In this document: positions 21,656 through 60,020 of the stretch, in pieces
How the letters are laid out: every line of letters starts with the position of its first letter
Position numbering within the stretch: position 1 is the stretch's first letter
Assembly: GCF_947623445.1 (NCBI RefSeq)
Contig: NC_135243.1
Span: forward strand, 9,550,501 to 9,614,500
Source of the DNA: Clavelina lepadiformis
Taxonomy: Eukaryota; Chordata; Ascidiacea; Aplousobranchia; Clavelinidae
Length of the DNA: 64,000 nt
Direction: 5' to 3'
The notes under the pieces: generated by a model
Database searches by the model: none
What the model was told of the DNA's origin: nothing
What the model saw: the letters and a program-made list of their open reading frames with translations, nothing else
Position numbers and translations under genes: made by a program

Positions 21656-24600
21656 TTAGTCGACCGGGTTAGCCTTGCGAGGAACACTGTAAACATCTCC
21701 TCCTCCTGGGAGCTCCTGACTCTTGTGAGGAAAGAAAAGATCGTCGTGATCCGGAAAGAACGAAGAGGGAGATTGATAGTTCTCGTTCCTTGGACCTGCA
21801 TCACTTGCAGCATTTGATTGAGAGGGATCACTGCTACTAGAGTTCGACATGTCAACTCCGGAATCTGCTACATCGGGAGCATCGGAGGAGTTTATATCTT
21901 TTTTTAATGGTTTCTGCTTCTCTAATGGTGTTGTCTCCCTTGCAAGATCGTACTCAACCTGCAAACCGTTTCCAGACGAATCTTGGACGGACTGCAGTTC
22001 CTCAGCTGCTTCGTAAACGACGAGCGTTTCGTCCAGTTCTTTTAAGGGCGGTCGCTGTAGGTCAATCTCTACATAGGCATGCGTGGGACTGTTCCTTTTA
22101 CCAGCTCGTGTGTGGCTAGACTTTACCACTTTAGGCCTTTGCTTTTGCAAGATCGGGGTTTTCGGAGTAAACTCGCGAGCAAAGGCATATGGAGTGTCTC
22201 CGTCACTTGGTGGAAGAATGGTGTCGTAAGGTAAAGTATTTCCTTTCATATCTTCGTAGCCGTCCGTGTCGTCTGCAAACATAATTGTAAACTTAGACAA
22301 TTTAGAGCATTAATTGTTTTAGTACGATCAAACGATATTTCGACACATAAATTAGTTAACGTTATACGTTAGCTTTACCTGCAAGCGAATAGCCTTGTCC
22401 ATTCACTAAAAACGCAATGGTGCTTTCCTCAACAGATTTCGTCGGTGAAACATGGCTTTTCTTAGTAAAAGTTGGAGAATCTAAAGGCCGTATCGTGACG
22501 TAAGTATTACTTTTTGCTCGGTAAACTGGCGATGGTGGAGCAGCTAAAACATAAAAGCATTTGTTAGGTAAATTGAATTTTACTTCATGACTATACCTAT
22601 ACAGATACGCGTTTGGACAACGTTCGGAACAAGTCATGCAAGGGAAGCAGTTTGCTGCATATACACTTGCACATCACACTTAAATTACTTACCAGAGGTG
22701 ACAGGTTTATCGTTCACGAAAATTGGGTTAATTATTCCGTTCTCTTGATTTTTAACCTTTTTCGGTGAAAAACTTGAACTTTCTGAATTCGAAGGGGTTT
22801 CCTGCGTTGTGAAATATATTTATTTAAAATGGAATAGGAATAAATTTGATGAAAAGATAAAACATTTACTTTTTAAACTATACATATCTGCAAAAAAATA
22901 TCACAACTTTCAGCAAAACATGTAAGTAAATCAATACCAAAAGTACAATTTATAGTAACTCTAACCGCAAAATAAAAATAGCAAAATGAATTTATTTCGT
23001 ATCAATTTCACCGTTAAAGTTTCTTTGATACTTACGGTATCGGTTCCTGCCCCCTCAACACCGGGAATAATTCCAAGGTTTTCATCTGTATTCGCAACGT
23101 AAGTAATCTCTAAACTACTCTTTCGACGCCTGCGTGTGACGCAGAAAAAAACAAGCAGACAAAAGATTAGAAAGACGATTATCAATGGAATAGTGATGTA
23201 AATCGCAATATCTGCATCTTCTCGTCTTCCTAAAGAAGTCCGTGGCCCATCGTCGTGCTCGTTTTGTACATGTCCCAATTGTCTGTTAAACGTAATGGCG
23301 TAGATTGCCGAAAACATAATTGGAAGGTCTTCAGCTATAGGTGCAGGTTGAGAGTCTAAACATTACACTTAAAATGTAAAAAGGTAAAAGAAAAGCTTGC
23401 GATCGTATGAAAACGCTCGCTTCTTTTCAATCGCAGCAGGAAGAAGTTACAAAAACCACCAGATAGTTAAGTAAAGTAATGTTTACGTTAAATGCATACC
23501 ATTTGTCAACTCTTGTTGCAAACGTTGGAAAATGTCGCCTGCCAACAAGCCGGCGTCCCTTTGCGAAAATATTCCATCCTGAAGTAGAAATTGTTGAGTA
23601 TAACATAAACTTATACGGTATCATTATTTTGGTTACGTTTTGAGCAGAATGACCTACCACTGACACAGCTAAGCTACTGTTTTGGTCGTTGACGTATACG
23701 CGGGCGCACTGGATGGTGGTGGATCTCTTGTACGTCGAATTGAACGGCATGTTGCGGATTTTGTCACAGAATTCATCGGTTGTTGTTTCCTAAGGTACGG
23801 TGGGTGATTAGTAGCATATACGCTTGCTTTCATCGCAATAAGCAACAATAACATAAGTGTATAAAAACGACGATCAGGATTATACGGCTTAGTATAAAAA
23901 AAAGCATACCTCCGGCAGTTTGGTGTGATTCAACCAAACCTGAATGACTGAACAGTCTTCGGTAATACTTTCTATAATAAGCAGACAAATTACCACATTT
24001 GGCGATTATAATTGTAACAAATCCTATATGCTGTGTCTTGTGTATTGCATTAAAAATCGATCATAGCTACAAATTCGATTGATGCAGTGGTGTTTTACCT
24101 TCGTTATTGAGATAAATCCTAAGACAAGTAGATGCCCAGTCGCAGTAATATTTCTCAGCAACACCTTCGCAACTGTTGGTAAGACAAGTGGATCGGTGAC
24201 ATGTTCCCTGGGAGTAATGTTCAAACTGACACGGTAAAAAGGAGTCATTGTGATCTGTAAACAAAGAAAAACATTTCACATGTGGGTCTAACCATTGTTA
24301 TGAGAACATAGATTGATATGTAAGAATACTGAACGTGCTATTCCGTATGTGAGACTATAGCAGACATTTTATCGTAAACTTGGATTAATTGCTGCTTACC
24401 AAAACGCTCGACTTCTTTCACCAAATCGATGGGACACAAGCAATTCACTGATGAACAATTTACAGTAGGCACTTGATACTCTAGCAATAAAAATGAATGT
24501 CAAATTCACGGTTTATCAACTTTTACGAAAAAGCTAGAAGATTCCAATCGACTTGTTGCAATTAGGAATCAAATGCCCGATTTTTGGGAATTAATGCTTC

Positions 24601-27600
24601 AGGCCGATAAATCTATACATAAGCAATAAAATGAGGTTTTAAAATTTGTTTTCAAAGAAGTAATTATACGTTCTGCAGTACATCGAAACTGGTCGAATTT
24701 GATATTTCTTTGATCTTACCAACGTCGCACTTTTCTCCAATGTACCCCTTATGGCAGTGACACCCATAGCCGGTTAATTTAGAAAAGCAGTATCCGTGAT
24801 CTCCGCAGAGGGAAAGTGGATTGAGACGAGGAACAGGGCTTCCATCATCACCGCGAGATGAAACGCAGTAATCCCAAACTAATATATAACTTTGATGAAA
24901 CTTAACTAGCACTTATTCAGCAAGTTCTATAAAATGATATACCAAAATATCCATATTGCAAAAATAATAATGGGCAAGAAGTATAAATAGTATAAAATCT
25001 TGATAGTATAAAAATGTTTTTCGTGTATTTGATGTGAAAAGAAAATGACTTGAAAAGTCGCAATGTACCATGTTCACAAAATCTTCCAAAGTAGCCTTCC
25101 GTGCAGGAACAATTGGCTTGTGAAGGGTCATCACTTCGGATTGAGCACGACGCCTGGTTCATACAAGGATTGGTGACGTCAGTGCAAGGATCAATAATGT
25201 CGAGACAATCCCGACCACCGAAGCCTGCAATTGATCAAAATGGGCTTCAAAAACTAGTTCTAAACCGCCCTAAACTGGAATCGGTTAGTATGAAAAAATA
25301 TATTGAACTGTTTTGATGCAATACTGATTGGAGAGGTCTGGTATGAATGATGCTGTGCTAGTGTTTTTAAAGTAACATATTACTGTATATACTATATTAT
25401 AAATTAAATTACATAATGAACTTTGTGCAATTTCAAATTAATGTTTTAATTAAACAGAAGGTTTACCGTTTATGCAGGTGCATTCGTATCCGAACGTTTC
25501 ATGATAGCATAGTCCTCCATTTTGGCACGGAGTAGCATCGCATGGGTCAAAATCATATTGGCAAAACCTGCAAGCGAAAGATATTTGACAGAGTTTATCG
25601 TCTACATCTGACATTTCAATGGTTTAAACCTTTTAACTCGCCAATCTGCATTCCTTTATGTTTTCAAACAATATCGTGACCGATTTTTAACAAAGATTAG
25701 TGTCAGTGCACTAGTTGAAAATAAGAAAGTTATGGAAAATACAAACCTGCCGTTGTGGTAGGGATCGCAGAGGCAATCAAATGACCCCTCGGTGTTGTTA
25801 CAAGTTCCACCGTTCTGACAGATTTCGACCCGGTAGGAACATTCGTTGATGTCATTCTGGCAGTAGGTGCCATTGAAGCCCTATCAAAAACAAATCGCTT
25901 CAGTTTGACTGGAAATTTATCTGATAAAAGCCCACTACTTTATACGTCACGATTTTGGAGGTTTTAAATAGTTTTACAAAGGCCATGTTGTGGCGTTTGT
26001 TTATCGTTAGATTTATCGATTTGATAAAGATTAAATATGACGTAAAAATTCGCAAAAATTATATGCCGTAGGGAGAAAAGTAGACCGCAAATAATAAGCG
26101 TAAAAATTGCACATCAAAGCAAACAGCAATAATTTTAATTAGCAAATAAACAACAACCACTAGATGACGCAAACCGACCGGTTATCAGGAATAAGTCTAC
26201 AACAGTTTGGACGATTGCAAATTAGTTATACGATTAAAACTCTGTAGTCAAATCACCGATCGATTTATTAATAATTTTGTGTTTATGACAAGTTTGGAGC
26301 GGTAGAAATCCACTATTTTCATCTTGCAAAGTTATAAATTAACCAGCATATAAAATTTATTTCATCTGTCGCCTGCGTTATGTTTCTAAAATCTCTTCCA
26401 ACTCTAGGGCTCCTTGAGCAACAAATATGGTACAACATTTCGCAATAACTATCAAGCACTTGCTTAACTTGATTTTATCTTGAACGAACTTTTAAAATTG
26501 AATGTAAGCATTTTCAAACTTATAGTTTTTGTTACGATAATCTGCCTCTTGTGACAACATGGTTTAACCAATGTCACGGACACGATAAAACGTAACCACG
26601 TAAACCAACGGTTGCTATTTATGTTAAAAAAGCCGGAAAGAGAAGATGCAGTATTTTCTGGAGAAGTCAATAAAAAGCCGCAGAAACTACTGGAGAACTT
26701 TCTCGTGTATCGTGTAAGTAAAGCAACATGCTGGATAGGCGCAGGATCGGTTGTCGGGGTAGTAATGCGTCCGATAGTACATGCGTTAAAGTCTTATCAG
26801 CATATCGTCATCACTACACCTCGTTAACACGTAATAGGTCATGGCCGTAAGGTCACTCAGAAGAATTTTTTAAGAATGTATCTTTAGCATGAGGTAAGCG
26901 AAAAATTTTGCTTGTACAAAACTTCAAGCGGAAAAAATGGACTGATGGTTTTCAAGCGATATAGTTTGAAAGGTAATTAATCAAGGCAGTCTGTTCTAGC
27001 TTATACATTTATCTTTTTCATCGCTTCCACGCTAAACTACTTCTAAAAGCTTTACAAAAACCAAAACGCTTCGACGGTACACATGTTTCGTTTCTAAAAA
27101 CTCCACCTTTAAGAAACCCAGTTTTATGCAAAAGGTGTGTCGCGACATCAACACGTATACATCTCTGTACTGCAATGGTAAACAAAATTTATCCTACCTG
27201 CGCGCAGTTGCAAAAGAATCCATTGGGCACAGGTATGCAAATTCCATCATTAATGCAAGGACCGCTACTGCAGTAATTTATCTCGTTTTCACAGTAAGTA
27301 CCATTGTAGCCAGGTCTAAATTAAACAAATGGAAAATGAAACATGTCCATCTAGCAAAAACTAAAAACTGACAAAAGTAAAATTACAGCACCCATTCACA
27401 ATGTTTCTTTCAAGACTTGAAATAAAAATTACTGCACTTCAACAGAACTAAGCTTTAGTAAAAAACGATTTATGGTGTTGTAAAGACAAAAATTGTTTAG
27501 ATTTTCGATTCACCTGCAAATGCACAAAGTAGAGTTTTCGTGAGATAAACATCGGGCTTTGTTCTGACATGGATTATGCTGACAAGCCAGTTTTGCTAAC

Positions 27601-30600
27601 TCCGGATCGTTGTCATTTTTAGCTACCTGGCACGCATCCCCCGTATAACCGGCAGGACAAGCGCATCTATATAAACAAAAAATAAACATGACAATTAAAC
27701 CTAGAACAAATGTTACTGTAGAGTGTGGACCGTTACATGAGCACCAGAATTTAGAGACTTATCGAAAGCTATCATGAAGCGGAGGCATAGGTTAGGACCA
27801 TGCGTTTGTTGAGAGAAGTAAAAAGATCCTTGTGTGTGCAGTTGTCAGTAAATTAAGCTGCATAAATGTAAGACAACTTACAAGTATTGCCTTTTAAGAC
27901 TGATACAAGTTGCATTTTCGGGACACGGATCTTTTGCCAGGTCACATGTGGGAATTTCCCTTTCGCAAAGTCGGCCTTCATATCCGAGTGGGCAAATGCA
28001 GTTAAAGTTCTGGTATGAAAACATTGTTAAAATCTTGTAAATTAAAAAGAAATCCCTTTCTTCCACAACCTTAAACTTGTATTTACTTGTAAATACTGCA
28101 AACAAGTGATGCCGTATCGGGTAGATTGAGCCTTACCTGTTCCGATCCATAAGTTGAAGGTAAAATTGCTGTAACGTTGTTCTTGGCCACGTAACAAATC
28201 GCTCCGTTTTGGCAAGGCAGAGATGCACAGGGGCTGCCGACACCATGTTGGCACAAGGGTCCAGTGTATGCGGTTGGACAAGAACAATTAAACGAATAAT
28301 CGGGATTGACACCGCATATGCCGCCTAAAATTTAAAGTGTTTATTTGGCGGTGTACCATGTTATGGTGGCTTTAAAATAAAGGGCGGCTGTAAGGCAGAC
28401 CTGAGAGTACTGTAATTCAACATATTTCTGAAATGCGTAACTGCAAATCTAAGTAGCATTGTTTATCAAGTAATAACACATGTAAAGGAAACGTTTACCA
28501 ACGTCACTAACGACAGTAACGTTATTGCAATCCGATAACGTCCTTCTACAGTATATAAGCATTTACAGTATTTACGTGTTTGAAATTCTCACTTTTACGT
28601 CCAGTTCTAGCTAAATGATAGCTCAACAAGCTTTGCAAAACTGACTGTACTTTATTTTTTAAAGTTTGCTTCAATTCGGAAAGTGGAAAAATGAATTTAA
28701 AAAAAATTTCGAACATCAACAGCACATTATTTACGAATGATGTTTTGGTTATGCCCTGGACTAGATGACTATCTAATGCAAATGGTTCACACTTACCGTT
28801 AGCACACGGATCGATCACGCATGGGCTTATTCTATTTTCACAGTTAACACCATTGTATTGCTCCGAGCAATTACAACTGTAGAAGGCAACGTGGTCGGTG
28901 CATGTGCCGCCATTTATACAAGGATTGCTGGCGCAGTCGTCAATGTTTTCGTCGCAAACTTCACCTGAAAATGAAATTATGAAGAAACTATACAAATCGT
29001 GACACCATGTCACAAAAGATATCTCAACAAACTAGAATTTTATGCATTTCTGATGAAGCGGCAGCCTAAACAACTATGCTTCTAACACACATTAGTAACA
29101 GAGTAGAAGCAACGACAAGAACAATAACAGCTTTCGATGTTGTTAGGATAGCTGTATGTTGTACATACCCCTGTAACCTGGGTCACAGTCACACGTAAAA
29201 CTGTTGACGCCATCTACGCAAGTGCCATGTAGACCGCAGTTCGCTGTAGCGCATTCATCGATGTCAACTGAACAAGTTGAACCTCTGTAACCGGCAGGGC
29301 AGTTACAAGAAAAAGACGTCGGGCTGTGGCGCTGATGAAAGAAAAAGGGAATGGTTCGGTCAAGGTCGTTTGGCCCAAAAAGGAAGCAAATCTCCTATCT
29401 GTATAACACGCGACGAGGTATTTGTTTGAATGAGTCAACCAAAGCGCTGTATTTTATGTCAAAAAGTTTATGTGCCTGTACTCTCTTATTATACTCCATG
29501 CAAAGAATTCTCTTTGAAGCAGTATAATGTTGGAAAGGCTAAAAATTCCAAACATTCCAGTCTAACGCAATCGGAGAAGACGAATAAATCACGTTTTTGA
29601 ATTTACCGCAATTCGATTTTGCGGATTATAAGCTAAATATTTCATAGAACAACATTTTCCGACGTGTCTTGTTAATCGGCGTCTAACTGTCAATTAGAAC
29701 TGCAAAGACAGAAGAAGAGATTATACAAAGCAATTAATCACGAACATTTGCCGTCTGTCAATCCTTCACTCCTAAAAAGGCCTTGATAGAAGCATTTTCT
29801 GTAAAAGAATTGCACGACTTGACAATTCCAAAGTGGGACCATGTGACATGCTAATTTTCTTAGAAAGAGATTACTGTCAATAGAAGTTTCCAACTGCATG
29901 AGATTAAATGGATCAAATCAAGAAGTGTTTTTTTGTATTTATATCCAAAAAAGTAGCACCAAACCGTGGGTTTATCCTAATAAAGGCGAAATTAAACTGT
30001 GTTTACTAATAAACACGATTTATCCGCAAAAAAGCGTTTTCGAGGTCAAAATAACCTAATGCGTTTACAGTGCAAAACTAATCGGATTACCACAATTGAC
30101 TGAAACTTTGCAAGCCTCCCTTTAACAGTGTGCAACCCTGTAGACTTATACCAGTTTATGCGGAGTAAAAAATGTTAAATTTGTGATACAGACATACTGG
30201 ACTCATTGAAAATAACAACAGTGTTCAGAAAGATATACTCAATTAACTTAAATTAACTCCAATAATAAATAACTGGAATACTAAAAAGCCTGTACTCAGA
30301 TAACTAAAATAACTCAAATAAATATGCAAGAAAATCACAACTAAAAGGTAATCTAATAATTCCAGGTACTGTAGCGTAATACGCGGTAGGTTTTAATTCG
30401 TAAATGAATGAGTCACCAAGATAAAAGTAGATCATTTCAAACTTAAATACTTTACTACACATGTAACAGAAAGTGAAATTGAAAATACTAAAAAGAAAGG
30501 ACAAAAAAATTTTTTTTTTAAATATTAGCTCACCAGGCAGGTTGCTCCGTTCTTACAAGGTTGATTTGCACAGACGTTCACTTCTATATCAAACAAAATG

Positions 30601-33600
30601 GTATAGAGGTCAAATTTCTATTCTTTTCGGTACTGTTAATAAATATATCCGCCTACTACTGTCAGGAAACATGAAAAATGAGTTTACGTATACAACACAT
30701 TAATTTCACTTCAAGGTTTTATTATAGTGTCAATCGCCATAAATAGGTACAATGTATGCAGCTAGTTGTTGCGTGTGCTTTACTGGCAGATTTGTAAATT
30801 TACCACAATTTCCAAATGGTCAAACAAGTTAGACATTAAACGTAACACACCGTTTTCACAATTTTTTCCATGATAACCAGGCAAACAATGACAGCTGTAA
30901 TCACCAACTAAATCTTCACAACGTGCCGTATGTGTTGAATTGCATGGGTTTGGCTGGCATTGATTAGTGTCTGCAAAATGTCAAATTTAAGTGTATCCAC
31001 TAAGTATAGACCTGTAACTTTTCAATAACAAACAAGTCTGAATCCACACTGATGCGCAAAACATTCGAATTAAGCATATCATGAAATTGTAATTCAAAAG
31101 AAGTCGTTAAAATATCTCAAATTCTTTGAATATCTTTTTAACGCAATGTTGTGTTAGCACAAGAACGCCGACCATAAAAACAACAAATTACAAAAACAGG
31201 CAAAGTAGTTCAATGCACGTTCAATTAAGTGTGGGAGAGATTCCTTTTTAATTGCTGTAACGAATCATAAATAATACCATACATCAAGCTAAAGTGACGA
31301 CAGAGCCATTAAAGTTGTGTTGAAAATTGAAAAAATGTGCCAAATTGTTCAAGAAAAAACAAGACGTGTTCGGGAAAGTTAGAAACACACCTTGCAGAAG
31401 ATTACTATTGCTAAAAATATGCGGTTTTACTCAAAACCTTATCAGTATAATTGCTACCTGCTCCCTTCACGCCTTGTCTTATCTGCTAGTTCTTTTATAC
31501 GCGGAAGTCGGAATAAAAGGCTATTTAAGGAGCTTCTTTGATATGAGTAGGTCTCAAATTAGAAGGATTAAGACTTTCTGAAAAGGTGGCCTTTTTGAAT
31601 TGATAGTTTTCGTGAGGTTTAAATCCCGCAAGAATTCAAATAGCCTCTGCAAAACTAATCGAAAGGCGATAGAACGGTCATTAAAAACGATCGCTCGAAA
31701 ACAATTTATCGATGAATAGACATAAGTTAATTTTCATCAGTTCAAAGCTGTGATAACAACAAAACAAATACATACATTTCACACGAAAAAAGAAGCGTGG
31801 TATTTCTAATGGACACGTTTCCGGGTCGACGAATATTTATGTGTGCAGCTGATCGTTCCCACAAACGCGAACCGTGAGTCATCACTTGCATCGGATTAAT
31901 TTAATAAAGAAATTTTTGAAAAAATACGGCATTTATGACGTCAAACAATTTAAGTCACGTTGTGAGAAAATTCTCGGATTAAGGTGATAGACAATCACAG
32001 TAGATTGTGAACATATTGGTCGAAGAAAAACAGCAACAAAGCTAGACGTTGTGTGGAGAGCCAAATGTTATTTTGTTGACGTATAGTCCATACATGGTAT
32101 AGCTAACGATAACGCGAAAATTACCAGCCTAAAAACATTGAAACATGGGCTAGGAAAGCCAATCCTCAAACGGCCATTTTTAACACGCATTAAAATGAAT
32201 ACAGTCAAACTTGACGTCTTTGCACGCATTAAGCAAAGAAAAATTCGGCGGATGATTAATAAAAGCTATGCGATTATTCAATTTCTTACCTGTGTAACGT
32301 CTCCAATATGCTTGCTGTAACAAAAAGTACGTCAATGAGTGCTTCAAATTAGCACAAATACAAAGATTTAAGCTGGTAACATGGGTCATAAGGTAAAATA
32401 AAATTTACTGAACACACAGCTGCTTGGTGAAACCTGTGACAGTTAGACGTGAATTACCGCTGCTTCATGATTTTTTCTTATATTTACTGCTTTCTCATTC
32501 TGTCATGAAATAACCCCGCCACAAAAAACATCGGTTATCGGGCATGCAATGTTTTACTCACAGTGAGAGCATCGTTTTCGAAAGCCTCCCTCGCCTCTTC
32601 GTAGGAGCATCTTTCCTCTTCGCACTCTTGCTCAATATTGCCCGGGAAGAGCTCTTCGTGACGCAGCCAAGAGTTAGCTCTTTTGCTTCTGTGCTTGATA
32701 AATTCTACAGCCTCCTCCCGAACAAGGAATACTGGAGACGAAAAATATAATATGTATGAAGCATCAGGCCAGAATTCGAATCCAAAGCATCTTAAGTCAT
32801 CAATTTTGGTTGTTATTTCTTCTTCCTATACATGGAGTTGGACGCTGTGTCATGTTTATGCAATAATATGAAGTGTATAACTATACGCAATATTCTACGT
32901 AGTTACGTGATGATTATGGAAACGAACAATGTCGACGCTATTAGAAAACACGGTAACTTGTGAGTAATTTGGCTGAAAAGTAACTTGCAACCTTATAAAA
33001 CTATATTGCCAGATTTATTGAAATTCCTGTCACACCACTGAGTAATTAAAACACCCAACAAAGATAGCAATCTACGTCAGCGAGCCCGATATCTTTGCGG
33101 GGCTCGCTGCTAAACAACCTGCTGGCCATAGTGGAGGCAATTTTCAGTTCATAAGCAACTTTCAAAGATCTTAATCAGTACGGTATAGCAGTACTCTTAC
33201 AGATCATTCATGAATAGAGTACTTGACTGTGTGATACAAAGCCATGCTAACTACTGTAGTATGGGTTTCTCGACAGCTAATAACGATAAATGAACTAAGG
33301 GAAAACCTAAAACAGACAACTTTAGGGTGTGCTTGATAAAGGGCATAATATGCTTGTAATTTTGAGTAGCGGACACAAAATATTCCGGAATTGCAGCGCT
33401 ATTTTTAATATCATGTTTTGTCACCAGTCTTCAGACCCTAAGTCTATTGTAGTGGGTGCCGAATCGCCCCGTGAAAGCATTAATCCTAACGACAAGTTTG
33501 TCACGTTCCCGTCAAAATCTCTGGTGCTAAAAAGCTGAAAGCGTATCTCCTGGTGTATCTTTACGGCGTCTTATTACGTAAATAAGAGATTAAAATGTCA

Positions 33601-36600
33601 CTTTGATTTTACCATGACAAAAGATGAGACTGCATGTCGCCTAAATAGCGTTGGCATAATTTGGAATTACGAGGGTCCACAACAAGGCCCAAAATTCTTC
33701 TCGACAAAAATTGTAACTAACAGGTCTCTGGTACGAAACGAGTTCGTCTGTTTATGGTTAAGATAAATGTAATGATCTTTGTCGGCAAACTTTGTAGGTT
33801 GAAAAACTCCAAATGAGTGCGAGTAACCTAAGTTATTGGCCAGCGGCTATCGAAAAGTTCCTTTGCGTTCGCTTTTAGATTATTTATGAAAAAAAAACAG
33901 CCAGGATTACGGAGCGGTCAATTTAAAAAGCGGCAGCAAAACTTGTTTATTTACGGAACAAAAAGAAAATGTTGTGCTCACCTTTCCTAAACGCACATTG
34001 CTTTCGAACGGGAGAAACTATCAGCGACAACACGATTGTTACTTATGAAGTTATGAGTATGACTAAAGTTTTCTTGCGAAACAATCGGCATCAAAACTGA
34101 ATGAAGGCCGTTGTAGTGAGCATATAAGACATGGTATAGCTATGCAGATATACGGTTTATCTGGTTACAAATCAAATATTTTGGTGACTGTATCGTTATT
34201 TATTTATGCTCGAAGCAGGCTTAAACCGTTAGCAATTGAATAAGTTGTTCAGTATTAATTGAAAACAACAATTCACTTTAATTCGAATGTGGGTTATTCC
34301 GAAACAGCTTATCAGCTTTATGTTGCTTATGTGAGGATGTTTTTCGACGTATTAATTACAATTGCAATTTTATGACAGTTAAAACAAATGTAAGCACGCT
34401 TTGTTCAATTTACTGCCAAAATATAATCATTGTGCAAGTCATAAAACTAACACTCGAGGGAACACAATTAGGTCTTGCCAGCGATGCTAACACCGATATT
34501 ATTTTGCAGGCTTCAGACAATTCAAATATATTTAAGACCGGTAAATTTAAAATTTAATTTGCAATTAAGAACCTACCTTATTAAAATACATTTCATAAAA
34601 ATCACTTAATTCTTAAATACTATACAGTATCATGTGCTGGCCTGTAATTCTGTCAAGCAAAAGCATACAAAGAGTGTACAAACAGACATTGAGTTTAGGC
34701 AAGTTTACCGTTTTTATCACAGTTTGGCCCTGTCCATGTCCCTTTGCATTCCAAGTCACCAGTAAAGGGATTGCATTGAAGCTGCGGAGATGGGGGTAAA
34801 CAGGTGACCGCACATCGGGGTCCGTATTGATTAGGGGCGCAGGAAAGGGTAAGAGTGGCAAAGAGTCGACACCCTTTCACACCTTTAAAAAAATCAGAAC
34901 ATTTAAAATCTGGCAAAAGTGATCTTTGCAAGAACATGTAGGGTTATGAGAACTGAATATCCTATAAACAAAATATTTCAGTGTTTAATGCACAAACGCC
35001 CACCTCCATTAGACACCAGTTCCACTCTGTGTAACGCACCATCATTTGGAAACATTAAAGGTAAATCTGCCCAATAATCAACCTCATTGACGTTAAATAC
35101 TTCAAATTGCAAAGTAGTAATTGCCACCAAGTGAGTGTCGCGCTAAAAATAGCAAAACACAGTTGAATTGCTATCAGTGAATATATAACGAGGTTATTGG
35201 AATCAATTGTTGTTTATTCATAATTTGGCCTTTATCTTATACACTCAAAATGAACATTTGAAGTTAAAATTTGTCTTATTTTATATATTTGGGCTGGATC
35301 CTATATGTTCTGTATCTTATACAAAGGATTGTAAAAGCTGTCTCTTATGCACATTTAAAGTTTAACCTCCAGCTAAAATTTTGACCTATAAATACTAACA
35401 TTAAACATTGCATCGCTTGCCAAAACGGTTAAAACTTCTTTGAAATTGTCTAAATCAAGATATCAATCATTCTATAGTCATATTTTATTTCATAGAAAAC
35501 ATTTCACGAAAAAAAGTGATAAATATAGCAACTAATTATTAAAGTGACTTAGCGTGGGCTGTAATTACAACAGTATCTTAATTAAAGGAAATACAACACA
35601 AAACCAAAATACTTTTTCTTTAACGCAGTCATGAGGTCTATTACGTAATTGTTGCTTTGGAGAAAAAGACCTGCTATTGGCTGTTATTACGGCGTGATTA
35701 TTGAAAAGGTACCAAACGTGCAATTACTGCATTGGTTGGACAACCGACAGATTCTGACATTATAGAGAACGGCTAATGATTGATTAACGACTGCATCAGC
35801 AAGAACATTCGCATAATAGTCGAATAATATATTCCTAATGCACATGCATGATAATTTTTATTGTCATTGAAAATTGCATCACCATGAAAAGATGCAACAT
35901 GAATACGGAAATGCGTATTCATGTACTTTTGCTGTAATTTCATTAGATAAGATTTATCAGGAACTTACGTTATCCGAGCGTAACGGAAAATGCAGTACTT
36001 CGAATAGTTGTGACGTCATTCCCTGCGCATTTTGACTGCTTTGGACAACCTTGAAGAAACAATCACGACAAAATGACAATTAATCAAGCGGCAACGGACT
36101 TTAGTTGCTAAAACAAGATGCTTTAAAAGTTCATGAAGGGTTGATTTACTTATGTATTTATATTCAAAGTAGAAGTTTTTTTTACGTGGGTAACAATTCA
36201 TAAAAAAGGTTCTAAACTGTCATATACCATTTTATTAAAATCAACTAAACCAGGAATTTAAACAAAATCTTTGCGTTGTTTACCAAAATTAAAATAGGTC
36301 GTTTGCTTACTTGCTTGCTTTTAAGATTAGCCGATAGGCAATCATGATGATCCAGAGCTGTTTTTTCAACAGAATCTGCCGCGGTTAAACACAATATTAT
36401 TTGCGGCACAGTGCCTAACGTGACATCACTTGGATCGAAAGCAAGCAATTTGTCAGTTGGGACACGTGACTTGTCTCCTGGAAGCAGTAATTCGATGGAC
36501 ACCTCGAGATATCCGTGAAATTCTAAATCGTTGCTTGCATCCTGTAATCTCGCCGAGAGATTAGCGGTGGTCAGCATTGTTTGCACCACCATGAGTAGTA

Positions 36601-36625
36601 CGCAGGTTATTGTACGTGGCAACAT
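21656..36625 (-). CDS. DSL-Gla-13xEGF transmembrane receptor-like protein, 26 exons
   Basis: Coding exons, 5' to 3': 36625-36311, 35142-35004, 34882-34709, 32731-32562, 32314-32290, 30970-30851, 30583-30534, 29331-29169, 28964-28797, 28324-28137, 28009-27882, 27666-27514, 27315-27198, 25880-25747, 25567-25467, 25224-25069, 24878-24720, 24480-24400, 24254-24099, 23971-23910, 23789-23658, 23578-23500, 23355-23036, 22801-22693, 22543-22379, 22272-21656. All phases agree, giving 1393 residues. Domains: signal peptide 1 to about 22; MNNL/C2-like to about 165; DSL-like about 168-212; propeptide 210-227 ending RSKR; Gla 228-273; thirteen EGF repeats about 275-820 (EGF3, DIDEC, is of the calcium-binding type); Cys-containing region to about 990; membrane span about 1040-1063; tail with many tyrosine motifs. 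Start is Met at 36625, giving a clean signal peptide; an upstream Met lies at 36685. I infer a calcium-dependent membrane- or ligand-binding receptor. The alternative is two genes split between DSL and Gla exons. Confidence 0.8.
32290..32731 (-). other. Gla domain module: propeptide-Gla exon and 25-nt aromatic-stack exon
   Basis: The 170-nt exon 32731-32562 (phase 1 to 0) encodes [18 protein letters not shown], a gamma-carboxylase recognition-type propeptide with a furin site. It is followed by [14 protein letters not shown], then [20 protein letters not shown]. The Cys-x4-Cys loop, the EEAREAFE block and eleven glutamates are as in clotting-factor Gla domains, with about two residues extra near the omega loop. 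The next exon, 32314-32290, is exactly 25 nt (phase 0 to 1) and encodes QAYWRRYTG, the aromatic stack. In vertebrate vitamin K-dependent proteins the same exon split, size and phases occur. W4 and L5 could be membrane-inserting residues. Confidence 0.92.
34709..36625 (-). other. MNNL/C2-like and DSL-like exons (1-3)
   Basis: Exon 1 carries the signal peptide ([18 protein letters not shown]) and the first part of an MNNL-like fold. Exon 2 gives [19 protein letters not shown]. Exon 3 gives the DSL-like cysteines: C-x8-C-x3-C (APNQYGPR, then AVT), then C-x8-C-x8-C ending WTGPNC. Notch ligands share this spacing except for the third gap, which is eight residues here against about eleven. In Notch ligands MNNL is a C2-type phospholipid-binding domain and DSL contacts Notch. 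Whether this protein does either is inference. Confidence 0.7.
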
Positions 36626-43969: not shown

Positions 43970-44786
43970 TTGTATAAAGAAAGTGATCTGGACCAAGTTT
44001 TATCTACGATGAATTTTTTTTATCCTCCTCCGAAGTTTGAACTTGAAGAAAGTTTTAGCTCGTTTTTATCCACGTTTGAAAGTTTCTACGACAGTATGGA
44101 AGCAACAGCAGCTGCTCGAAAATATGCTTTTATGCTCAGTTTACCGGAAGAGGTTAAGTTGGAAATGAAATGCAACGGTGCAGAGTTGCGGGCACCATGA
44201 ACTATGAAAAACTAAAGTCCAAAGCTGAGGAAGTTGCTTGTTGTTCACTTCGATGTAACAAGGTCAAACAACAGCTTATACAAAGAGCCCAAGCATTATA
44301 GGTGAAACGAATCGAAGTTACGTCAACGCCCTTGTCAATTTGGGAGCAATTGCATACCCGAAACCGGAAGATGAAGGTACTAAGAATGACGTCTTGCATA
44401 ACGTTTTGATAGCTGGACTGCGTAACAAACATGAAGCAGAAAGACTGGTCACGTGCAACATGGAGGTACAGTGTCCAAAGTTTCTAGATGCTGTCAAAAA
44501 GTTATTAATGATGGAACCTGCGCATGTGCAACAACACGGTTCCAAAATACAGCCAATAAAGCAAGTCCCATCAGCTTGCAAGGAAATGAAACAAATGATC
44601 CAGGATCTGCGGTAGGAAGTTGACACCTTGCGTGAATCACTATCGGAGATACGGCGGAGGTCTCGTCTTAACCACAATCATCCCTTTCGCCCCCGGGAAC
44701 CACGCACGTGTTTTACATGCCGAGAAATAGGACACATCAGGCGATATTGTCCTCAACGCAACCGCCAGGGAAACGCCAACGAATGA
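43970..44786 (+). pseudogene. gag with CCHC zinc knuckle, broken
   Basis: An N-terminal capsid-like frame starts near 43970 and stops at 44200. Further gag-like sequence follows in other frames (44200-44615). A nucleocapsid zinc knuckle lies at about 44708-44752: CFTCREIGHIRRYC, a C-x2-C-x4-H-x4-C pattern. Several stops and shifts separate the parts, so no complete gag is encoded. Confidence 0.75.
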
Positions 44787-44797
44787 CCACACCATGA

Positions 44798-45376
44798 ATG
44801 AATCCATCACCACAACCAAAACGAGAATTGGTTACTTACAAGATACAGACCGTCTCTGCAGAACAAAATAGGTACGTTAACGTCGTCATAAATGGTAAGC
44901 CCTTGTTTGCGCTTGTTGAAAATGGTGCATCAATTACCGTCATATCACATTTGGCTTTCCAACAATGTTCCGCTCAAGATTTAAAAGACTGCCCTTCAAA
45001 TGCTCGATTTCTTGGCGCAAGCGGAACCGTTATCGCGATGGCAGGAAAAGCAAAGCTAAACTTCACCGTTGCCGGAATAGAGGCCACTCGCAACGTTTTT
45101 GTTGCGGAGAACTTGTCGGAGTCTTGTATTCTGGGTTTGGATTTTCTTCAAGACCATGGTTGCATCGTTGACTATGATGTGATGACACTCAAGGCAGGTA
45201 GAGGAACATTACCGCTACTGAGAGAACCAGATATTTTGCACAGTTCCTCGATTGCCCTAATTGAGTCACTGCATATCCCGGCGTTTACTGAGGTTGTGTT
45301 GCCCTGTAATGTTAAACGCCCGAAGAAGTCCAAGTCTAACGACGTTTTTATACAGAGATCTGCATGCCTACTATAG
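44798..45376 (+). pseudogene. Retropepsin-like protease region with altered active site
   Basis: The open frame has the retropepsin layout: a beta-strand region (YVNVVINGKPLFALV), then ENGASITVIS where the family normally has D-[ST]-G-A, then an ILGLDFLQ motif like the usual (I/L)LG.DFL. The catalytic Asp is replaced by Glu and the next residue by Asn, so activity is unlikely. The frame ends before the reverse transcriptase. Confidence 0.75.
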
Positions 45377-45643
45377 ACAAATACGAAATTTCAGGCGCAA
45401 ATTACGTAACGGAAACCAAAAACAATTTGGTGCCAGTTAGACTTGCCAATTTTACGAATAAAAGCAAATGCATTCCGGCTGGGACAATTGTTGCAGATTA
45501 AATATCAATTGTTGGAGAAAATGTTTCGTACATTAATGCCTCCTCATTATGTTGTATATCGGAAGAGATTTAGGAGCCAACAACCGATGATGACGTGTCG
45601 TCTCTCATTGAACAACTGCATCTAAATTTTAAATGATCTTAAT

Positions 45644-48107
45644 TTGTCAGATGTTGAGAGGGAAGCTGTAATCGAAGTGATTCGAAGACGGCAAGCTGCT
45701 TTTTCACTCTCTAAACGTGATCTTGGCAAAACCAATATTCTTACTCACAGTATTGACACGGGAGACGCTGCACCGATACGCCAAACACCCGAAAGGAATG
45801 TTAGGAGAAAACAAACGAAAGGTAGATGAGTTGCTAAAGGATATGTTAAATGATAACATTATTAGTCACTCACAGTCGCTTTGGTCTAGCCCAGTTGTGT
45901 TGGTAAAAAAGAAGGACGGCAATGTGAGGTTTTGCGTTGACTACAGGGCTGTCAACGATTGCACTGAGAAGCACAGTTTTCCTTTGCCACGGATCGATGA
46001 CAGTTTGGATCAACTCTCGGAGTGCAAATATTTCACCACACTGGACCTTAAATCTGGTTACTGGCAAATACCGATGAGTGAAGATGATCGTGAAAAGACA
46101 GCGTTTACGTGTCATCGAGGGTTATTCAATTTTAATGTTATGCCTTTTGGACTAGCCAACGCACCTGCCACTTTTCAGCACTTGATGCGGATAGTGCTCG
46201 ATGGGGTTGAATGGAATGGTGCATTGGCGTACCTGGATGACATCATCATATATGTGTTACAGATTTTCTTTTGCCAGATCGTTTTCTACCGCTTTCACGG
46301 CCCACTCAAAGCCAACGAACGTTTTTTAATGTAGTTCGATTGTATTTTCATATGAGATTAAAAACACTCCCCTCCGTTTGGGGCTTAACGTTCGGGACAC
46401 ACGTTCAAAATAAGTCGATAAAATATAATACAAGCGACAAGAGCAAATCCGAGGGACAAAAACGACAGGTCCTCGTCCTGAACGCTCGTCTCTAGACTGA
46501 CCTCGAAGGCCACATTTTTTTAGGAAGGCAACCACTCCCGCCTGAAGGCCATGCGGGACACCAACCGAAAAAGGACACGTAATGATTCCGCGTTCGACCA
46601 CATCGAAACACTTGAGGCGGCAAAGAAAACAACATGAAATAAAGCAATGGACAAGAGAAATCATGGTGATAACAAACAGAATAAAAGCTAACTGATAATT
46701 AACTAACAAAAATAAAAGCGTGGGAAAACACACGAAAAACAAACAAACAATGGTGCGAAATATAATTTTGCCACATATGCATGTGTCACGAGAATATCTT
46801 TACGCACTTGTTTTATTATGTAGCACCGCACATTGATACGTTTTAGTTGTATAGTTAGTTGTATATTCCACGATGTGTTTTTAGATTTATATTAAGATGT
46901 ATTTCACCCGTATTGTTGTGGCTATAATGTGTGACTGCGTTTTTATTTAGTATTAGTAACTCATCGATATTTCACTTGTGATTCCTTTTCTTGTTAGTAA
47001 GTTTTCTACACACACATACGTTTTACGCCCCGCAACTCCCCCCGAGGTATGTTACGCTGCCCGCAGTTTCCATCCTCGCATGCTAATGATGATTAATTGA
47101 TTGCGCTGTGGTTTGTTGGAGAAGAGTTGAGTCAGTCTACTTTTGGTTTTAATACAAGAAAGACCTTTGTTTTTATTGAAAGAATGCTCGTAAAAATAGG
47201 TGAGCAGGAACTGGCTAAGTGACTAGCCGTTAGAGCGGGAAGATTCCTGGCTGAGGAAAATCTTGGTTATACATGCACCTTTCAAGATCATCTGCACAAC
47301 TTGGACGACGTACTTTCCCGATTAGTTGCAGGTGGCCTCAAACTTAAACCGTCTAAATGCAATCTGTTCAAAGAAAAAGTTAGATTCTTGGGTCACGTGG
47401 TTTCAAAATCTGGTGTATCCTGCGATCCGGAGAAAATCTCTGCGGTTTCAAATTTGCCTGCGCCCTCGTCGATTAAGGATGTAAGGCAGTTTTTGGGACT
47501 CGCATCATACTATCGCAAGTTTGTCATAGATTTTTCCGAAATTTCAGCGCCACTGTACGATTTGATGAAGTCTCAAAAACAGTTTTGCTGGAATGGTAAA
47601 TGTTTACACTCATTCAACTTGTTGAAAGACGCACTCGTAACAAACCCGGTATTGAGATACCCGGACTTTACACAGCAGTTCATCCTCGATACAGTTGCTT
47701 CAAATTCTTCGCTTGGCTGTGTTTTGTCACAGATTGTAGATGGTGAAGAGCACCCAGTTTGATACGCCACTAGGTCTCCAACGAAAGCAGAAAGAAATTA
47801 TTCCACCACGAGGAAGGAACTCCTGGCAATTGTTTATGGGGTGCAGAAATTTCGTTGTTATCTTGGCACACCTCTTCTTCTTAGCACGGTCCACGCTTCG
47901 TTACGGTGGCTGTGGACAGCAAAAGAGACATACGGTCAAAGTGCGCGCTGGTTTGAAATATTGGCTGATTTTGGTTTTAAATTAATTCATCGCTCTGGAT
48001 CAAAGCACTCCAATGCAGACACACTTAACAGAAGGCCACAGAGCAGCAAAAGAAGTGATTCTAATAGCGTCAGATTGAATCTTGACAATTATCCGTTATC
48101 CGTTTGA
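45644..48107 (+). pseudogene. Reverse transcriptase and RNase H, interrupted
   Basis: Pre-RT sequence (LTHSIDTGDAAPIRQ) shifts frame near 45800 into the palm domain. That has SSPVVLVKKKDGNVRFCVDY, TTLDLKSGYWQIPM, FGLANAPATFQHLM and the YLDD catalytic box at about 46230. Right after LDDIIIY the frame is cut by an insertion (46254-47267). It resumes with TFQDHLHNLDDVLSRL, the connection region (FLGHVVSKSGV, FLGLASYYRKF) and an RNase H part ending HRSGSKHSNADTLNRRP. More stops and shifts follow at 47763 and beyond. Confidence 0.88.
46254..47267. mobile_element. About 1-kb insertion inside the reverse transcriptase
   Basis: Non-coding sequence splits the reverse transcriptase right after its YLDD box. 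Its ends are imperfect inverted repeats: AGATTTTC followed four bases later by GCCAG near 46261-46277, and the inverted counterpart with the same spacing at about 47247-47263. This suggests a non-autonomous DNA transposon. A solo LTR is the alternative. Confidence 0.5.
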
Positions 48108-48429
48108 AGTTGAAGAAAATTTTATAACCGGTAAGACCTCGACGGAAAGTGTTTTAAGTATTGATCTTCGTGAGGGTTTTGGTTGGACTCCTGATCAAAT
48201 TTCACAAGCTCAAAAGTCCGACGAACATCTTTTCGTAGTACTAGGTTGGATTAGAGCCGGCACAAAACCCTCTTTTAAGAAAATTAAGAAATTTAGCAGT
48301 GAGGTTCGACATTACTGGTCTTTGTTTGGAGAGTTTTTTTTAATACACCAGTGCTTGTACCACAGTCTGGAAGACACATTGGTAGAAAAGCGCCTTCAGT
48401 TACTGGTTCCTAAAGAAATGCGTCCGTGA

Positions 48430-49548
48430 GTCCTGAAAGAGCTACATGACGCATCACATGGAGGAGGACACATTGGTGTTGATAGAACAGCTGAAAGAGT
48501 TTCAAAACGATCTTACTGGCCCCGCTGGAAAACGGATGTCTGTGAGTATTGTGAGAGTTGTATACTCTGTGATTTACGTAAAGCTCATTCTAGAATACCA
48601 AGACCGCGCTTGTTACCTTCCGATGAGTCGGAGACGATGCAAAGAACAGAGATTGACGTCCTGGGAGGATTTCCTGTGACACATTCAGGAAACCGTTGCA
48701 TACTGGTAGCCACTGCATGATATGTACACTAAATACTTGCAGGCTTGGTCAATGGCATCACAGACAGTCCAAGGAACGGCATTTGTTCTCTATCATAACT
48801 GGATGACGATTCATGGTGTTCCGGAGCGTATTCACAGCGACCGAGGAGGAAATTTTGAGAGCCAGTTGTTTAAAGAACTTATTGATCTTCCCGGCTGCAA
48901 GAAATCAAGAACCACAGCATACCACCCTTCTGGGAACGGAGCGGTTGAAAGAGACAACAGAACAATCCTTTTCATCATGCAGAATTATGTCCAGCGCGAT
49001 CCACTATCCTGGCATAAATCACTCTCCTCAATTTGTGCGACCTATAACTCCAGTCGACAGGTGTTTCTCCACATTTCCTTCTGACAGGACGAGAATTAAG
49101 GTTACCAGCAGATTTGATGACTGGACAGCCTTCAAGTCATCCATCATCGTCGGCAATGTTCGATTTACAAGACCGTATGCGGCTTGTCCACGAAGTCGTG
49201 AAAACAAGACTCGACCAACGTCGGCAATCCATGAAAGCACGTTACGACAAGTCGGTATCGAGAAAAGCGGAGTTTCAAGTAGGAGACAAGGTCATGCTGC
49301 AAAACACTGTCATATCAAAAGATGAAAAGGGAAAGTTTCACCTCCCTTATTCAGGCCCCTACGAAGTTGTTGAGACTTTTCCACCCGTAAATTATCTCCT
49401 TCGCAATCATGAACGGACGTTAAGAGTACATTTTAACAAGCTAAAGCTAAGCAGAGAAGACCATCATACAGGGATGCTTTCCTATAGTCAAGCCAGTTGC
49501 CCAGAAGATGTTGATGCGATTACGCCTTGCCCGTTGTCGAACGAGTGA
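48430..49548 (+). pseudogene. Integrase, broken
   Basis: A zinc-binding N-terminal region (LHDASHGGGHIGVDRT, then CEYCESCILC in another frame) precedes the catalytic core. There HSDRGGNFES carries the second Asp and GNGAVERDNRT the Glu. The first Asp lies in a DVLGGFPVTHSGNR segment that is followed by stops near 48718. The C-terminal frame 49114-49548 ends with a GPY/F-type module (LPYSGPYEVVE). It runs into the 3' LTR. Confidence 0.82.
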
Positions 49549-49666
49549 ACATTCTACCGATGCCTTTACTGCAGTGTAGACATGCATATTTTTTACTGTT
49601 TTGAAATACAATCCTATAGATAACTGTAGGTCTCTTCGAACCAGCACTAGAAAAAGGTCGGTAACA
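49515..49666 (+). repeat. 3' LTR, 152 bp
   Basis: Matches the 5' LTR over its full length, starting tgcgattacgccttgcccgt and ending ggtaaca. Confidence 0.85.
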
Positions 49667-52352: not shown

Positions 52353-52718
52353 CTACTTTTTTGCGCAAAAGTCACACACAAAATTGCCATGTCCAGGATA
52401 AGCAGAGCAGTTTTCATGACACCACTTTTTGCACAAAGAACACTGGATCCAGTCTTCTTTCGGTGGATGTGTATACAATTCGCTGCAAATCAGACATTCA
52501 TAGCTTCCGGAAAATTGCAATTGCTTCTTGTTCCTTTTATGGATAGGTTTGCTTGAGGAAGGAGCTTTGCTCTTTGAAAGTAAAATTTTCTTGAAAAGTG
52601 AACTGGTCAGCACCTGCGACTTCATGGCTTTGCTCTTCCGGGTGGTCAGTTTCACATGAGGGAGTGGAGAGATGTCCATCACATGCACCCTGATGGAAGG
52701 GCTATCAGTCAGCTGCAC
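52353..52718 (-). pseudogene. C-terminal zinc-finger end of a pogo/Tigger-type transposase
   Basis: The 121-codon frame has a basic stretch with SQVLTSSLFKK, as in Tigger-like transposases. A cysteine/histidine finger follows (YECLICSELY, EDWIQCSLCKKWCHENC, GNFVCDFCAKK), which is a PHD-like motif common at the C-terminus of invertebrate pogo/Tigger-type DDE proteins. The DDE catalytic core is absent. The frame ends four bases from the inner border of the right duplication arm, so the element may have been cut by the rearrangement. Confidence 0.6.
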
Positions 52719-53454
52719 GCGTAATTACAAACATTATTTTAAACCTTAAGCCGTATCCGGGCAAAATAATAACTGCGTTTCTGCGGCTTGCCGCAAAGCA
52801 TCACAGGTAGAGGTGGTGCACAGCACAGCGAAAACAAGACTTCCTTTATTTGTGCAATATCGGCGTAAGCTGCGGTTACCGGTTCTCTGGTTACTCATTC
52901 AATATCGGTAAATATATTTTTATAAGAATACTTACATAAAGAAGAAATTATATATGTAACCAGCAAAAAGTACGTTTTCAAATTGAGTGCAGTATTTTTC
53001 AGTCGCCAGTAACTTCCAATTTTAGATGACCTGCTATGGGCAGAAACCATTTGTAAATGTCGGACTATTCGAGTATATGCAAAAGTTCGAGAAAAAGGCA
53101 ACTTTTGCATTAACTGGTATCTCGCGCTTAGCATTAGTAACACTGTTAAGACTATGCTGTACGTGTTTCGGGTGTACTATAGTTAACTTGTTACCAGTTT
53201 TGCACCCGTGAATGTAATTCATGATAGAGCAACTATTTGATTGATGACATGACGCTACAAAGGTTGGTTAGAAACTGTTGATTATTCAAATGATTAATTA
53301 GAATAAGAAATGAATAGAGCACCAGTAAGGTTATGGGACAAACTACAGATAAACAGGGCTTTTTAAAAACGAAAGCTTGATTGTGTTATTTAGTTGTCTC
53401 ACTATATTTAAATCAATCACTTTGTGTTGCCTTATACCAAGAAATTTTAATATA

Positions 53455-58654: not shown

Positions 58655-58883
58655 GTGTGTTACGTAAATGTCTAACTTGTTTGACCATTTGCAAATTGTG
58701 ATAAATTTACAAATCTGCCAGTAAAGCACACGCAACAACTAACTGCATATATTGTACCTATTTACGGCGAATGACACTATAATAAAACCTTGAAGTGAAA
58801 TTACTGTGTTGTATACGTAAATTTATTTTCTGTTTCTTGACAGTGGTAGGCGAATATATTTATCAACAGTACCGAAAAGAATA

Positions 58884-60020
58884 AAGTAAAGATACCAATT
58901 TCACTTTATATCAATAAAAAATATACCAAGAATTGACGACAGAAACGTCGAAAATAGAGAGGCAAGGCTGTTTGCATCAGAAGCAATACTATAACATGAA
59001 AGGCCTGGATTGATTACACGCAGTAATATTATGTTGCATGAAATTATTATTGATCTAGCTAACACACATCCACCTACACAAAGCATTTGCCGATAAGTAA
59101 CTGAAATCACGATTACTTTTGCGCTCTAACACTTTAAAATGTTACATTGGCATTTACCGGATTAATTCGGTCTCCGTAGAAATGGTGTTTACGTTAACGG
59201 GTGATATATCAAATGGTACACCTTGGGAGCGCGATTAAGCGGGTTACTTTTGACCTGAATAAAGAAAGAGTACAGGCGGGTACAAACTACAGGCGGTCGA
59301 CACTTTTCTCGTTTAAATTTAACAAACAGGTGTATGACTGTATGACTGATGGTACAAGCAACGGTGTGTCATGATTGAAACTATGTAGGGTTACTTCAGT
59401 ACAAGAGTACCATCTTGAACGACACAAACTTTATTTGTTAATAAGATTTACAATAATTTCGTATGTCATTACAGTATACAAGGTAAACTTCATATAAAAC
59501 AGATTAAAATCTAATCCAGTGCCCGCAAAATCATGATCACTGAAACCTTCTCTGCGATAGTTATCTTTTCGAAATGCTAACACTTATTGCTCAGAAAATG
59601 AATTTGTTGGATAGCATTTCATTAAAACTCGAGTTACACATCAATGCAGCACCCGGGCTAAATACGTTTGTTCCTTTGCGTAATGTGCAAACATGGTGAA
59701 AAGCGAATATATTGAATCTGCTACTATCTCGCTACACTCATACATAGCAAAGATACCAATTAGATACCAACCAGACAGCAAACTGCTTCATGATTAGTTA
59801 GAATGAGAAATGAATAGAGCACCAGTAAGGTTATGGGAAAAACTACTGACAAACAAGGTTTTTTAAAAACGAAAGCTTGATTGTGTTCTTTAGTTGTTTT
59901 ACTACATTTAAAGTTTTAAACCAACCACTTTGTATTGCCTTATACCAAAAAATTTTTGAATGCTGCAGCTTAGTTTTGAAATAGCCAAGGCTGCGGTTAT
60001 TGTAATGTTTTAGAGAAGGT
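58884..60020 (+). other. R2 upstream block and promoter-proximal copy
   Basis: From about 58905 to 59770 the sequence matches left-arm 40672-39826, and from 59784 to 60017 it matches 36950-36716. The latter is the region just upstream of the gene's start codon, also found at 53275-53590. It therefore carries a third copy of the presumed promoter. It holds no coding sequence of its own. Confidence 0.75.

Follow-up and report, generated by a model that had tools for sequence, protein, structure and literature searches.

In this study, we have explored a 64,000-nucleotide stretch of the Clavelina lepadiformis genome (contig NC_135243.1; hereafter the window) and, on its minus strand, a gene that we call gene A, the product of which consists of a DSL domain, a Gla domain, 13 epidermal growth factor (EGF) repeats, a membrane span and a cytoplasmic tail, in that order. 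On balance, we lean towards the explanation that a Gla cassette was brought by exon shuffling into a Jagged-like gene, and that the protein encoded today would be an internally cleaved type I receptor for adhesion or membrane sensing, and not an ordinary Notch ligand. Coordinates are positions in the window, genome-wide searches took in the 209-Mb genome, and the gene model was built from genomic DNA alone.

Gene structure and domain order

Joining exons at AG/GT boundaries gives a single open frame of 27 exons on the minus strand (36625-21656), which starts at an ATG at 36625, ends with the stop codon at 21656 and comprises 4263 coding nucleotides for 1420 amino acids. All 26 introns are GT-AG and their phases are consistent; the longest is intron 4, with 1977 nucleotides. 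An earlier note on this DNA, made from the letters and their open reading frames, had the strand and the agreement of the phases right and erred in the number of exons, which it put at 26. The Pfam cut-offs that apply below are 24.2 bits for DSL and 27 bits each for Gla and JAG1-like_EGF2.

The EGF model reaches 178.2 bits over 13 stretches of the protein, and a manual count likewise gives 13. Repeat 1 lies in exon 7 (30851-30970), placed there by the match of the Gla domain plus this repeat to chains of the factor X/IX type, and repeats 2-13 are encoded by exons 8-18 (24720-30583; Pfam and exon table). Exon 24 (23036-23355) holds the end of the juxtamembrane region, a membrane span recognised by hydropathy (about 23206-23135, near residues 1068-1091, with a maximum of 3.16 for the 19-residue stretch from residue 1071) and the start of the cytoplasmic tail, which according to the exon table continues through exons 25-27 to the stop codon (21656-22801). 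This tail is 331 residues long, with 12 tyrosines and 22 lysines, and some of its motifs, such as YEDM and YSVP, resemble what we take to be SH2-binding sites, a likeness that is suggestive only. The Gla domain, the 13 EGF repeats, the membrane span and the long tail had all been proposed in the earlier note and are borne out here; the Pfam searches retained both Gla and DSL, the former strongly and the latter at threshold, and the order DSL, Gla, 13 EGF repeats, membrane span and tail stands.

The Gla cassette and its internal propeptide

The Gla domain scores 65.7 bits when exons 5 and 6 are scanned alone and 56.1 bits in the full-length protein. Exon 5 (32562-32731) encodes a propeptide (residues 237-254) that by inspection ends in a furin site, RSKR (residues 251-254), directly before the Gla domain, most of which follows in the same exon. 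Ahead of the membrane span, no R-x-K/R-R motif other than RSKR occurs; just behind the span lies RRRR (residue 1092), which also fits the pattern. The aromatic stack of the Gla domain is encoded by exon 6 (32290-32314), which has only 25 nucleotides and reads QAYWRRYT. An exon of the same size, reading RQFWRRYS, sits at the same place in a Gas6-like Gla gene on C3, and vertebrate factor IX and X genes also carry a 25-nucleotide exon there; for the Gla genes of C2 and C8, none was found within 1020 and 2100 nucleotides, respectively, so that one of the three other Gla genes of the genome shares it. Furthermore, the best matches of the Gla domain together with EGF repeat 1 are factor X-like (E 2.9e-23) and factor IX (E 7.9e-23) chains. 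Based on the layout of propeptide, furin site and Gla domain, on the 25-nucleotide exon and on these factor X/IX-type matches, gene A seems to have acquired a complete Gla cassette with phase-1 introns on either side.

What distinguishes this cassette is its position. In Gla proteins of the coagulation and Gas6 types the propeptide follows the signal peptide, as it does in the Gla gene of C3 by sequence reading and by a scan for signal exons, whereas in gene A it is preceded by 236 residues that include the DSL domain and is not adjacent to the signal peptide. We propose that exon shuffling in a tunicate would have inserted the propeptide, the Gla domain, the 25-nucleotide aromatic-stack exon and probably the next EGF repeat into a Jagged-like gene. 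The insertion, bordered by phase-1 introns, would lie behind the DSL exon, at the position that two atypical EGF repeats occupy in Notch ligands. The encoded protein would be a vitamin K-dependent type I membrane protein. After removal of the signal peptide, gamma-carboxylase would dock on the internal propeptide (residues 237-254) and carboxylate the Gla region, furin would then cleave after RSKR254, and the N-terminal DSL-like fragment would either be freed or be kept tethered by a disulfide. The fragment spanning residues 22-254 has nine cysteines, and with this odd number a disulfide to the rest of the protein is possible. The chain left in the membrane would carry 13 EGF repeats tipped by a Gla domain able to bind calcium and phosphatidylserine, backed by the 331-residue tail with its 12 tyrosines, and would serve as a receptor for adhesion or membrane sensing rather than as an ordinary Notch ligand. 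Carboxylation, cleavage, lipid binding and signalling of the gene A protein are what we infer from these features. The earlier note had imagined two N-terminal modules coupled to one signalling receptor; both modules are present, but a propeptide and furin site between DSL and Gla predict that the two would be separated and would not act in one chain.

Some observations count against this maturation pathway. The propeptide has one extra residue between its alanine and RSKR as compared with that of the C2 gene, so that its binding by the carboxylase is not certain. The genome does contain a match to PF05090 (HTTM, the family that includes gamma-carboxylase), on C1 near 27.499 Mb with 89.9 bits for the best exon; nevertheless, PF05090 also covers bacterial proteins and matches 3 of 14 bacterial and archaeal control genomes, and given this breadth the C1 match is no proof of gamma-carboxylase orthology. 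In addition, matrix Gla protein retains an internal recognition site uncut. This last precedent bears directly on the alternative that the internal propeptide of gene A also stays uncut, in which case the N-terminal region, the DSL domain and the Gla domain would stay joined in one chain and form a composite tip for membrane binding. Motifs alone predict both carboxylation and furin cleavage, and a broken second copy of the gene in the window (copy B, described below) reads KSKR where gene A has RSKR. We nonetheless consider an uncut chain unlikely, RSKR being a full furin consensus at the very position where Gla proteins of the coagulation type are cut.

One gene or two

Across intron 4, we probably deal with one gene. 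Upstream, the frame of exon 5 stays open as far as an in-frame stop codon immediately ahead of 32825, and no methionine occurs in this stretch. A scan for signal-peptide exons, defined by an ATG, a hydrophobic stretch and a phase-1 GT donor, returned no candidate in the 1977 nucleotides of intron 4, whereas in the 2 kb before the other Gla exons it returned two candidates for C3, seven for C2 and two weak ones for C8, some of them overlapping. The lack of a methionine in exon 5 and of a signal exon in intron 4 favours a single gene without proving it. The force of the scan is reduced by its chance background, since three further long introns of gene A yielded three, one and zero candidates and intron 4 of copy B yielded one; the two weak candidates before the C8 Gla exon belong to this background as well.

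It could also be that exons 1-4 form a transcript of their own and that exons 5-27 are expressed as a Gla-EGF receptor from another promoter or by trans-splicing, as separate genes or as isoforms. Intron 4 is, after all, the longest of the 26, and the Gla-EGF half resembles a complete protein in everything except a signal peptide. Since the DSL exon is, like the Gla cassette, a phase 1-1 module, the agreement of phases across intron 4 comes cheaply. Yet a second start is hard to place with no start codon in exon 5 and no signal exon in intron 4, by a scan that succeeds for the Gla genes of C3 and C2; furthermore, the donor of exon 4 and the acceptor of exon 5 are intact, in copy B too. We regard separate transcripts as improbable and retain the single gene that carries DSL and Gla in one open frame.

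The DSL domain and Notch binding

The DSL-like domain of gene A (residues 193-235) is encoded by exon 4 (34709-34882) and placed by Pfam and by alignment. Its score depends on the length of what is scanned: 25.6 bits for the N-terminal 236 residues alone, 28.8 bits for the exon by itself when the whole genome is searched, and 21.6 bits in the full-length protein, which is below the cut-off of 24.2. The DSL-like domain of the earlier note is thus upheld on the N-terminal piece or the single exon and falls short at full length, and we regard the domain as real but marginal. Five places in the genome reach an E value of up to 0.1 with this model, all above the cut-off, on C1 (73.2 bits), C6 (65.9 bits), gene A (28.8 bits), copy B (27.9 bits) and C3 (9.42 Mb, 24.4 bits). 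The last of these is a cluster of weak DSL-like exons (C3:9424683-9427532; the best, at 24.4 bits, just above the cut-off), and the weak matches near 9.427 Mb have E values of 0.003 to 0.06. The C6 gene is named Jagged here on account of a Pfam JAG1 match in its juxtamembrane region and of MNNL and DSL at its N-terminus; the C1 gene is named Delta, by eye, on account of its MNNL, DSL and shorter EGF run. The six cysteines and a Tyr-Gly pair of the gene A domain align with the DSL domains of both. A sequence search of PDB with the DSL exon gave no match, and a structure prediction of this exon alone (57 residues) was not used, its mean predicted local distance difference test score being 49.2 and its predicted template modelling score 0.28.

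The residues that make contact with Notch tell a different story from the cysteines. The Notch-binding face of the JAG1 DSL domain is made up of F199, R201, R203, D205 and F207 (PMC3415683), and the F207A change in JAG1 lowers Notch-1 binding to background (PMC3888931). By alignment, gene A retains none of these five residues, as compared with all five in the C1 Delta and three in the C6 Jagged. For this count, we have assumed that the five residues fall on the motif FCRPRDDFF. The loop concerned has the sequence KFCRPRNDVFGHYNC in Delta as opposed to KFCKPRSGFFGHYTC in Jagged; that of gene A is diverged and three residues shorter. Given that 0 of the 5 face residues are retained, a role of gene A as a Notch ligand appears unlikely. 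The two atypical EGF repeats that follow DSL were also looked for in gene A and none was found; the Gla cassette stands there instead, and JAG1-like_EGF2 reaches just 17 bits, with its best stretch at residues 780-792.

The DSL cysteine pattern, the EGF array and the Jagged-like juxtamembrane stretch (see below), together with the calcium-dependent phospholipid binding reported for the N-terminal C2 domain of Jagged-1 (PMC3888931), would suit a working Jagged-class ligand in which DSL engages Notch and an added Gla domain supplements the lipid binding of C2, but with the Notch face gone and its loop shortened, the Gla cassette in the place of atypical EGF repeats 1 and 2, MNNL undetected, and a predicted furin cut that would detach DSL from its anchor in the membrane and so leave no pulling force on Notch, we give this idea little credence.

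A possible Jagged ancestry

The Jagged-like character of the proposed recipient gene was investigated at both ends of the ectodomain. At the N-terminus, exon 1 (36311-36625) has an open frame with a hydrophobic start and a GT donor, and encodes the signal peptide and the first part of the region that stands in the C2 position (residues 1-105); exon 2 (35969-36049; AG/GT, phase 0-0) and exon 3 (35004-35142; AG/GT, phase 0-1) continue this region up to the DSL exon. When the DSL domain was included, cysteine-fixed shuffles reached the score of the alignment with the C6 Jagged in 4 of 2000 cases locally and 2 of 2000 globally, and that with the C1 Delta in 0 of 2000 locally and 13 of 2000 globally. 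Without the DSL domain, the corresponding counts rose to 1356 (Jagged) and 459 (Delta) of 2000 local and 398 and 1050 of 2000 global shuffles. MNNL is thus not confirmed, the alignment signal being lost once DSL is removed. Global alignment with Jagged brings a phase-0 intron to nearly the same position in both, one residue apart, an observation to which we attach little weight. A search of PDB sequences with the N-terminal 236 residues returned two matches (E 0.78 and 0.79), both to a RAMP-superfamily protein. We also tried a two-sequence profile of Delta and Jagged, with which the N-terminus of gene A ranked first among 1000 shuffles, though at an E value of 0.17 (0.47 for the next shuffle), which is not significant.

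At the other end, exons 19-23 (23500-24480) encode a cysteine-rich and juxtamembrane region that is weakly Jagged-like in shuffle tests. Cysteine-fixed shuffles of the juxtamembrane stretch reached the score against the C6 Jagged in 5 of 5000 local and 4 of 5000 global alignments, and a second cut of this stretch gave 1 and 5 of 5000. Against human JAG1, a sequence that was typed from recall and that the Pfam JAG1 model recognises at 124.1 bits, the score was reached by 3 local and 10 global shuffles of 5000, and the register of the alignment was unchanged. Furthermore, a phase-0 intron follows KLP-E in gene A and KLP-M in the C6 Jagged, the two positions coinciding in the alignment, and the exon after it measures 132 nucleotides in both genes. 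Based on these results, a Jagged ancestry of the C-terminal part of gene A is weakly supported, likely but not proven.

Several results stand in the way of a firmer statement. Pfam MNNL, which scores 176.5 bits on the C6 Jagged, has no match in gene A, and the whole-genome search with this model places four hits, among the matches listed, on C1 and C6 and none in the window. The MNNL/C2-like region that the earlier note had read at this end is consequently not sustained, Pfam finding no match and the region alone aligning at the level of shuffles, and gene A may at most have a diverged C2 fold there. Pfam JAG1 (PF23575) likewise has no match in gene A, as compared with 30.5 bits on the C6 Jagged. 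An exon-wise genome search with PF23575 matched neither gene and, since it misses the C6 Jagged too, provides no test of gene A. A longer cysteine-rich stretch did well in local alignments with the C6 Jagged (13 of 2000 shuffles) but poorly in global ones (206 of 2000), and the end of the 132-nucleotide exon is two residues off in the computed alignment. A PDB sequence search with the juxtamembrane region gave no match.

Comparison with known proteins

Gene A combines features of two systems and departs from both. Like the Jagged/Serrate type represented by the C6 gene, it has EGF repeats behind a DSL cysteine pattern, a cysteine-rich and juxtamembrane region, one membrane span, and one juxtamembrane intron that agrees in aligned position and in phase. 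It differs by its Gla cassette in place of atypical EGF repeats 1 and 2, by its 13 EGF repeats as opposed to 16 in Jagged (PMC3415683), by its loss of the Notch-face residues and by the failure of the Pfam MNNL and JAG1 models to match. With factors VII, IX and X and with Gas6/protein S it shares the succession of propeptide, furin site, Gla domain and EGF repeats, and with the Gas6-like C3 gene also the 25-nucleotide aromatic-stack exon. Unlike these proteins, gene A has its propeptide after DSL and not after the signal peptide, has no protease or laminin-G part, and is membrane-anchored.

Ascidian Gla-domain proteins are not new as such. Kulman et al. in 2006 are said to have described four of them, Ci-Gla1 to Ci-Gla4, three of which reportedly resemble proteins that act in fundamental development, in the regulation of complement and in coagulation. 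The developmental-type Ciona protein of that study could well be a Notch-ligand-like protein. A transmembrane Gla protein with multiple EGF domains, GLA3, is known from vertebrates, with the 2006 study cited for it, and a Ciona Gla3 has been measured (PMC8149874). Our full-text literature search found no DSL-Gla protein in the portions of text that it covered, the study of Ciona Gla proteins from 2006 lying beyond its reach, and the novelty of the combination, which the earlier note tentatively took for an undescribed family, is uncertain. It is conceivable, if rather doubtful, that gene A represents an undescribed class of chordate membrane proteins, in which a Gla propeptide was captured by a Notch-ligand-like protein and vitamin K-dependent maturation sheds a soluble DSL fragment and leaves a phosphatidylserine-sensing Gla-EGF receptor. 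The exon shuffling and maturation that we propose for gene A would illustrate how complete exon cassettes passed, in a tunicate, between Notch ligands and vitamin K-dependent proteins, two large families built on EGF repeats, and would provide an invertebrate example of a surface receptor with processing linked to vitamin K.

Other Gla genes of the genome

Five Gla exons were found in the genome, two of them inside the window. The Gla exon of C8 (C8:18022708) is followed about 4 kb downstream by the kinase motifs HRDLAARN and DFG, a succession that we take to be the layout of a Gla receptor tyrosine kinase (Gla-RTK), and the C8 gene is a probable ascidian Gla-RTK. The C3 gene (C3:19041001-19061000) is Gas6-like, with a long EGF run before a laminin-G-like stretch by eye. 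It was considered as a second DSL-Gla member and rejected, as it consists of a signal peptide, a Gla domain, EGF repeats and the laminin-G-like stretch (by eye), with its signal exon 93 nucleotides before the Gla exon. With the Gla-RTK-like gene of C8 and the Gas6-like gene of C3, the genome appears to encode several proteins of the Gla type.

Copy B and other features of the window

Copy B (53663-61511, plus strand) lies 17 kb from gene A and is a recent, broken, inverted duplicate with counterparts, by exon matching, of exons 1-7, part of exon 13 and exons 14, 15 and 16. Ten gene A exons (1-5, 7 and 13-16) are matched at 92-99% identity; the counterpart of exon 6 is present, though under the score limit of the matching, and the other 16 of the 27 (8-12 and 17-27) are missing from copy B. 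Between the two copies, introns 1-5 share 94-97% identity. The defects of copy B are a one-base gap in exon 7, the missing 5' part of exon 13, and the loss of the exon 14 acceptor and the exon 15 donor. The nonsynonymous (Ka 0.037) and synonymous (Ks 0.054) divergence between the copies over exons 1-6 was set aside as a sign of selection, copy B being broken and introns 1-5 differing about equally.

A 16-bp minisatellite forms two oppositely oriented arrays (61661-61872 and 62424-62607) just past the final exon match of copy B, and these possibly mark the duplication breakpoint. Between the two gene copies, pieces of a Ty3/gypsy-like retroelement (44000-49550, plus strand), interrupted around 46250-47220, contain frames that by eye resemble a protease, a reverse transcriptase and an integrase. 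Finally, a 123-residue open frame on the minus strand (52353-52724) ends, by eye, in a cysteine/histidine pattern resembling a PHD finger.

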